64,000 bases of DNA from positions 9,564,648 to 9,628,647 of the forward strand of contig CM073329.1 in assembly GCA_037043015.1 (NCBI GenBank). The letters are read 5' to 3'. The notes under the pieces are model-generated. The model ran no database searches. It had not been told where the DNA came from and saw only the letters and a program-made list of their open reading frames with translations. The position numbers and the translations under genes were made by a program. The DNA comes from Bryum argenteum. Lineage: Eukaryota; Streptophyta; Bryopsida; Bryales; Bryaceae. Positions 53,236-53,949 of the stretch are shown piece by piece; the stretch's first letter is position 1, and every line of letters starts with the position of its first letter.

Positions 53236-53949
53236 ATGGCAATGAGAACTATGTCGGTTGTATGGAGCTTGTGGCTCTTACTTTTTGTGGTAGGAGCACT
53301 TGCTCGTGATTTAGCCGATAATGCGGTTCAGCAGAAGGCACCGTGGGGCGAGAACAACGACGACCGACCGCCGAAAAAGCCTAAGTTGATCCTTGATGAG
53401 CGCGCAGCACCATGGAGGGAGCTCAACGACGACCGACGGCCGAAGAAGCCCGAGTTGATATTTGATGGGCTTGCGCGACCTTGGCTCAAGAAGGAGGAGC
53501 GTGCAGCGCCGTGGAGCGAGCTCAACGATGACCGACCGCCGAAAAAGCCTAAGTTGATCCTTGATGAGCAAGCATCACCGCTCAACGACGACCGACCGCC
53601 GAAGAAGCCGAAGTTGATCCTTGGTGAGTCCGTAGTGCCGCTCAACGATGACCGACCACCGAAAAAGCCCAAGTTGATTCTTGATGAGTCTGTAGTGCCG
53701 CTCAACGACGACCGACCTCCGAAGAAGCCTAAGTTGATCCTTGGTAAGCGAGCAGCTCCGCTCAACGACGACCGACCGCCGAAGAAGCCGAAGTTGATCC
53801 TTGATGAGCACGCAACGCCGCTCAATGACGATCGACCGCCGAAGAAGCCCAAGTTAATCCTTGGTGAGCAAGCAGCGCCCCTCAACGACGACCGACCGCC
53901 GAAGAAGCCCAAGTTGATCTTTCATGAGCCCGCGCCACTTAGGGGTTAA
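53236..53949 (+). CDS. Secreted multi-copy repeat protein; candidate peptide precursor (237 residues)
   Basis: The start is the ATG at 53236, followed by a classic signal peptide: MAMRTMS, a hydrophobic core WSLWLLLFVVG, and a cleavage site after ALA (residue 23). The mature part consists of nine copies of a 13-residue core, NDDRPPKKPKLIL. Eight are identical or changed only in the last residue; copy 2 is degenerate (NDDRRPKKPELIF). From copy 3 on, units are exactly 20 residues (60 bp) with variable linkers such as DEQASPL, GESVVPL, DEHATPL. There are no cysteines in the mature part. It would enter the secretory pathway. It could be a precursor cut into bioactive peptides (compare CEP or HypSys precursors in layout, not in sequence) or a proline/lysine-rich wall protein; PP and KP are possible hydroxylation sites, and KK pairs possible processing sites. 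I do not recognise the family. Confidence 0.8.
   Translation: MAMRTMSVVWSLWLLLFVVGALARDLADNAVQQKAPWGENNDDRPPKKPKLILDERAAPWRELNDDRRPKKPELIFDGLARPWLKKEERAAPWSELNDDRPPKKPKLILDEQASPLNDDRPPKKPKLILGESVVPLNDDRPPKKPKLILDESVVPLNDDRPPKKPKLILGKRAAPLNDDRPPKKPKLILDEHATPLNDDRPPKKPKLILGEQAAPLNDDRPPKKPKLIFHEPAPLRG
53518..53937 (+). repeat. 60-bp coding tandem repeat, seven units
   Basis: Units begin CTCAACGAYGACCGACC in exact 60-bp register. Differences in the 39-bp core are nearly all silent (for example GAY, CCN, AAR changes), while the linker part changes amino acids. Confidence 0.9.

Follow-up and report, generated by a model that had tools for sequence, protein, structure and literature searches.

Does a moss gene whose product consists largely of near-identical short repeats encode an intact protein, or a precursor from which many copies of a peptide are released? 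This question is raised by a gene in a 64,000-nucleotide stretch of Bryum argenteum DNA (contig CM073329.1, positions 9,564,648 to 9,628,647 of the forward strand), hereafter called the window. A first-pass annotation had described the protein as a candidate precursor of a peptide hormone or of a RiPP-like product. We find that the gene belongs to a family whose members carry repeats with constrained cores and with residues between the cores that change freely. From the sequences we infer cleavage and use of the product as a defence or stress peptide: the 12 open genes of the family likely specify proteins that are cut to release a new kind of peptide for signalling or defence.

The repeat-protein gene in the window

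Translation of the open reading frame and a count of its cores bear out the nine-copy repeat protein of the first-pass annotation, including a signal-peptide-like start that ends ALA (Table 1). Read by eye, the hydrophobic start of the window protein ends VVGALA and is followed by Arg. The earlier statement that cysteines are absent holds for the mature part of the window protein. The 13-residue sequence NDDRPPKKPKLIL is exact in seven of the nine cores, the exceptions being copy 2, which reads NDDRRPKKPELIF, and copy 9, which ends LIF. Thus, the copies are nearly identical as described, but the repeat proper is a unit of 20 amino acids in which about three residues change freely. The linkers do vary, as had been noted, and they are not uniform: the anchor spacing along the window gene is 23, 33 and then 20 residues. 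Tandem Repeats Finder reports a 60-bp array at positions 53520-53929 with a score of 561 and 6.8 copies, from which we conclude that the array is not a product of chance.

Table 1. Positions of the repeat-protein gene, its upstream parts and its cores, counted from the first nucleotide of the window.
Feature	Position	Strand	Sequence or description	Basis
Largest block common to the window and paralogous locus L056	51572..54631	+		
TATA box	52769..52776	+	TATATAAA; TATATAA present in 13/14 aligned 5′ regions	Sequence reading
Inferred 5′ UTR intron, before ATG	52865..53219	+	355 bp, GTGAGT...TGTAG	Sequence reading
Coding sequence, repeat protein	53236..53949	+	237 aa plus stop	ORF list and translation
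Predicted signal peptide	53236..53304	+	MAMRTMSVVWSLWLLLFVVGALA, 23 aa	Judged by eye
Core 1	53356..53394	+	NDDRPPKKPKLIL	Repeat count
Core 2, variant	53425..53463	+	NDDRRPKKPELIF	Repeat count
Core 3	53524..53562	+	NDDRPPKKPKLIL	Repeat count
Core 4	53584..53622	+	NDDRPPKKPKLIL	Repeat count
Core 5	53644..53682	+	NDDRPPKKPKLIL	Repeat count
Core 6	53704..53742	+	NDDRPPKKPKLIL	Repeat count
Core 7	53764..53802	+	NDDRPPKKPKLIL	Repeat count
Core 8	53824..53862	+	NDDRPPKKPKLIL	Repeat count
Core 9, ending LIF	53884..53922	+	NDDRPPKKPKLIF	Repeat count

The TATA box and 5′ UTR intron that had been proposed are readable upstream of the coding sequence, and their signals recur in the paralogues. The 5′ regions of 14 of the 21 family loci were aligned, leaving out L013, L016 and L020, which are near-duplicates of L012, and L024, L025, L027 and L028, which are without the start motif. 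Both TATATAA and the donor sequence GTGAGT are present in 13 of the 14 regions, the sole exception for either being the decayed copy L026, and the acceptor AG is present in all 14. Because these splice sites are common to the paralogues, the 5′ UTR intron is probably spliced. Given such splicing, exon 1 would contain an upstream ATG that opens a short frame (window 52858-53246), the end of which would overlap the second Met codon within the main open reading frame. By eye, this feature is not kept in L014, L017, L021 and L023.

Several other features of the window were observed. A tandem array with inverted CCAAT-like stretches at positions 39154-39599 resembles a 65-bp part of the promoter region of the gene (78% identity, E 4e-9). 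A match to U5 spliceosomal RNA (positions 54849-54961, + strand, 83 bits) is situated downstream of the gene at a distance of about 900 bp. Open frames resembling ubiquitin-conjugating enzymes are located at 36473-37441, 43589-44164 and 46943-47536; the likeness of the frame at 43589-44164 was confirmed by a protein search, and that at 36473-37441 contains a 12-bp repeat, translated as FTSE, in about 27 copies.

A gene family that arose by DNA duplication

A search of the 258.8-Mb genome for family members yielded 45 matches, and grouping these gave 21 loci, one of them the window copy. Fourteen loci are on contig C9, three on C2, two on C10 and one each on C3 and C5, and ten of those on C9 form a cluster within 13.97-14.33 Mb. 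Two loci, L022 and L024, are on the same strand and 1952 bp apart; possibly they are the two parts of a single broken copy, in which case the loci would number 20 rather than 21. The start motif is kept in 17 of the 21 loci, and in 12 of the 21 an open frame longer than 150 codons extends from this motif. Of these 12 frames, 11 look complete and that of L013 is truncated on the 3′ side. The remaining loci are broken or decayed, as in gene birth and death.

Eight copies that were compared have common blocks of roughly 2.4 to 4.9 kb. These blocks include the promoter, the intron and the 3′ region, and therefore the copies arose by duplication of DNA rather than via mRNA. The window copy breaks off at position 54631 (Table 1), but other copies continue together past that point, and we therefore rejected the idea of a transposon unit that ends there. 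A distant match on C4 (E 4.6e-6) was also rejected as a member of the family, as it is an unrelated 30-bp tandem array (L069, 399-867; 15.6 copies, 99% match), which has open frames on both strands.

Sequence similar to the promoter, exon 1 and start of the intron (window 52621-52999; 89-92% identity) was also found at 11 further dispersed loci on C1, C4, C7, C8, C10 and C11, where the match stops by position 52999. In three of these, L066, L067 and L068, the promoter part occurs twice and the sequence departs from that of the gene at 52999. From these alignments, it looks like a dispersed element captured the promoter.

The repeat core is conserved and the linkers change

Repeats were counted by the anchor KKP[KE]L, which gave 116 in the 12 open-frame proteins (6 to 14 per protein), with one further degenerate repeat at the cut end of L013 left uncounted. 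The hexapeptide KKPKLI is exact in 114 of these repeats, and its codons vary, with four codons used for Pro, five for Leu and three for Ile. Longer versions of the core are also common: RPPKKPKLIL is exact in 66 of the 116 cores and RPPKKPKLI[L/F] is found in 86.

Values of pN/pS were calculated from the 78 units that are followed by another unit exactly 20 residues on (3003 pairs), and these are descriptive and not a test because the repeats have common ancestry and have perhaps undergone gene conversion. The value is 0.0045 for KKPKLI, whereas the linker residues at +9 to +11, three in number, reach 1.32 and the D-E pair at +7/+8 reaches 1.19; PLN and DDRPP are intermediate, at 0.18 and 0.24. 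Other parts of the repeat can change around the hexapeptide. For example, L017 and L021 carry mostly SDAPPAKKPKLILDE, in which the left half is changed and KKPKLI is unchanged. These findings support the view that the core has been under very strong purifying selection, as judged from the coding sequences, and that the linkers change. A nearly unchanging core beside residues that drift freely points to a specific partner for the core, be it a receptor, a target in microbes or a polymer of the wall.

The broken loci serve as a comparison. The old broken copies L025-L027 retain KKPKLI in only four of nine repeats (Fisher p about 1e-5), a count that leaves out two chance matches. Recently broken copies have kept it in most hits (L016, 9/11; L019, 7/7; L020, 11/11; L022, 2/2; L024, 5/6). 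The contrast in pN/pS, together with the loss of the core in decayed copies, leads us to reject both chance and a bare minisatellite as the origin of the array. A coding-looking minisatellite without function would account for the variable repeat number and for the several broken copies, and would agree with the recurrence of part of the 5′ region, its first half, in other dispersed sequence. However, the existence of 12 open frames, the strong amino-acid constraint, its decay in broken copies, and a promoter and splice sites common to the paralogues make this explanation very improbable.

The expectation, set beforehand, that homologues should conserve both the core and its spacing was realized in the paralogues only for the core. 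Anchors are 20 residues apart in 78 of 104 intervals and otherwise 17, 21, 23, 30, 31 or 33 residues apart, and hence it is the core rather than the period that is conserved. In L023 and L024 the unit is about 30 residues and contains KKPKLIFDGPAPPWLKKEE. A Tyr ahead of the core (YNDD) is present in L023, L025, L026 and L027, three of these four being decayed; the 20-residue units either lost this Tyr or never had it.

Searches for relatives

The first-pass annotation knew of no family with this core, and our searches agree. Analysis of the window protein by hmmscan (E up to 10) returned no Pfam family, and no sequence in the PDB matched it. Among 5.8 billion proteins, neither a single-sequence search (718 candidates scored) nor a profile search (scoring the 7995 candidates that had the most words in common with the query) produced a match at E ≤10. 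This protein collection includes Sphagnum, Calypogeia, Riccia, Sanionia and Selaginella, as seen among the best 120 of 2500 results of a control search. Because bryophyte proteins are thus represented, the absence of relatives has some weight, which is limited by annotation quality and by the need for exact words in common. None of three strings from the core occurred in 5.39 million papers, and literature searches found no description of such a family. The sequence comparisons therefore support the conclusion that no known family has been found for the repeat protein, bryophyte proteins included. To our knowledge, rather few peptide signals or defences of mosses are known, and most of these were found via their likeness to families of flowering plants.

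Predicted disorder, charge and the possibility of a wall protein

An AlphaFold run on 11 aligned members (without L013) predicts a single helix at residues 2-32 and nothing folded beyond residue 32, with a mean pLDDT of 51.2 and a pTM of 0.18. A solenoid fold is therefore not supported. Since the spacing of the cores varies from 17 to 33 residues and the model has no fold past the helix, each core probably acts as its own unit. The core has a charge of +4 and the usual linker (e.g. DESVVPLNDD) a charge of -4. Taken as a whole, each mature protein has a net basic charge (+4 to +12), meaning that the linkers do not fully neutralise the cores.

Disorder, net basic charge, predicted secretion and variable repeat number are also the characteristics of an intact, lineage-specific, proline-rich tandem-repeat protein of the wall or mucilage, from which nothing would be released and whose Lys-rich cores would serve, all along the chain, as binding sites for acidic polymers such as pectin. 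This is the strongest rival to a peptide polyprotein, and we regard it as a real possibility although a rather doubtful one. With its predicted secretion (signal peptide by eye) and four prolines per 20 residues, the repeat unit sits exactly at the 20% bar applied in a survey of plant proline-rich repeat proteins (PMC3149072), and that survey describes most classes of such proteins as narrowly distributed and reports that gene clusters occur, which the C9 cluster (10 of 21 loci) resembles. Unlike extensins, PRPs and PELPK proteins, the family proteins have no Ser-Pro runs (SPn), no YxY or VYK cross-link motifs and no PELPK repeats, and 11 of the 12 lack Tyr. Moreover, the strongest constraint falls on KKPKLI, including its Leu-Ile, and not on prolines generally.

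Possible release of peptides by Asp-directed proteolysis

The peptide-precursor idea is our best reading, and we consider the odds of its being correct to be about even. Specifically, proteolysis of the polyprotein would liberate a basic peptide with prolines, approximately RPPKKPKLIL, in many copies, a proposal drawn from the sequences that could well be right or wrong in equal measure. The protein would enter the secretory pathway behind its predicted signal peptide, which the paralogues have in common, and its acidic linkers would offset the basic cores. An Asp-directed subtilase of the phytaspase type would then cleave at the Asp that precedes the core (at -5 or -4), and frequently at one that follows it (+7) as well, and subsequent trimming would leave the peptide. 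Its use would most likely be as a defence or stress signal or as an antimicrobial, and many copies per precursor would supply a large dose at once.

Candidate cleavage sites are common in the repeats. Asp is present at -5 or -4 in 115 of the 116 repeats; 86 have it at +7 and 85 have it on either side of the core, and Gly often takes the place of Asp after the core (23/116). Phytaspases are described as cutting prosystemin after two Asp residues that flank systemin (PMC13082318). The weakest step is at the C-terminal side, where no fully conserved site is known, as the +7 Asp is limited to 86 of 116 repeats and the +7/+8 pair is unconstrained. Likewise, the boundary of the peptide is not marked by the pattern of constraint, because PLN and DDRPP are constrained as well.

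Other proteases appear less suitable. The motif KLI[L/F], found in 111 of the 116 repeats, is similar to sites of site-1 protease, for which the rule R-x-(L/V/I)-x has been given (PMC7162652). However, the canonical motifs as presented in PMC7162652 and PMC2685025 include an Arg in place of which KLI[L/F] has Lys, and we rejected this candidate. Dibasic processing is unlikely because KK is followed by Pro in all 116 repeats.

The earlier proposal of a released core and discarded linkers is thus supported in part, in that the protein is multi-copy, predicted to be secreted and constrained in its core; the wall protein described above remains its rival. With 116 repeats in 12 genes, the product should, if the genes are expressed, be plentiful enough for mass spectrometry to detect.

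Comparison with known systems

CEP and HypSys precursors are secreted plant proteins able to hold more than one peptide, and the first-pass annotation had likened the layout of the window protein to theirs. The CEP domain has a GHSPG-type end, and HypSys peptides are Ser/Thr/Pro-rich glycopeptides with hydroxyproline. No GHSPG-type string is present in the family proteins and, unlike HypSys peptides, the core RPPKKPKLIL is without Ser or Thr. The comparison did not hold at the level of family membership; in addition, the host is a moss and the families cited are those of vascular plants. A non-flowering host is also indicated by a 12.5-kb plastid contig of this assembly, which carries psaC, ndh genes, rps15, a ycf1 of 1584 codons and chlN, a gene not known from flowering plants. 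The type of psaC, whose best PDB chains include one from a moss, and the make-up of the assembly (eleven contigs of 7 to 44 Mb plus small pieces) suggest a moss.

ST proteins (PF10950/DUF2775) are reminiscent of the moss proteins in several respects: they form a multigene family, begin with a signal peptide, contain tandem repeats and are encoded with an intron close to the 5′ end (PMC11991032, PMC3499167). Multi-core RiPP precursors of plants have been described (PMC11253845), and one could imagine a precursor of the burpitide or cyclopeptide type in which BURP-domain enzymes introduce cross-links into the repeats, a route proposed for ST proteins. The genome does contain 32 BURP-domain matches, but none is on C9, which carries 14 of the 21 loci. 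The Tyr in EFEPRPxxxxY is required in ST repeats, and this motif is absent from the moss proteins; Tyr or Trp occurs in 0 of the 78 units of 20 residues, Tyr in 0 and Trp in 1 of the 116 cores, and Cys in 1 of the 78 units, with Trp present in longer linkers. The moss unit is mostly 20 residues rather than the 25-26 of ST repeats, and there is no N-terminal non-repeat zone of 80-100 residues. The window protein has no PF10950 match; a genome search for PF10950 found none either, a weak result as its control also matched nowhere. ST proteins are reported as absent from Physcomitrella in the account of PMC3499167. We therefore give hardly any credence to a RiPP precursor, and of the RiPP-like character suggested earlier we see no sign of cross-linking, even with BURP-domain genes elsewhere in the genome. 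Clustered expansions of those genes lie on C8 (9.7-11.0 Mb) and on C10 (13.4-14.3 Mb).

There is also a likeness in layout to apidaecin of bees and wasps, whose secreted polyprotein is made of near-identical repeats with short spacers and whose active end is PRPPHPRL (PMC11549390). Type II PrAMPs inhibit bacteria and trap release factors; their layout, in which repeated peptides alternate with spacers, is seen in all 12 moss proteins, and RPPKKPKL is similar to the apidaecin end in string and charge (RPP...P[RK]L). The polyprotein might accordingly yield a direct proline-rich antimicrobial rather than a signal, which we think unlikely. Peptides in Physcomitrella exudate can be antibacterial (PMC6322304), but the exudate activity described for Ceratodon is smaller than 1 kDa and resistant to proteinase K (PMC10057591) and hence is not of the core-peptide kind. 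PRPPHPRL itself and the RREAEPEAEP-type processing spacer are absent from the moss proteins, type II polyproteins of this class are reported only from insects in PMC11549390, and a core that is unchanged across paralogues would suit one receptor equally well.

Systemin offers a parallel for the peptide itself. Like the candidate peptide, systemin is short and basic, has Pro-Pro and Lys, and is flanked by Asp on both sides (PMC13082318), an arrangement found in only 85 of the 116 moss repeats. Prosystemin differs from the moss protein in that it is not secreted and holds one copy, and there is no sequence relationship between the two. We tentatively suggest, as something less than probable, that RPPKKPKLI[L/F] is a candidate moss peptide messenger or antibiotic that would be released by Asp-directed proteases and would stand outside every known plant peptide family. 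By this still doubtful reading, the moss genes would combine a systemin-like peptide with an apidaecin-like package, in polyproteins that together encode more than 100 copies.
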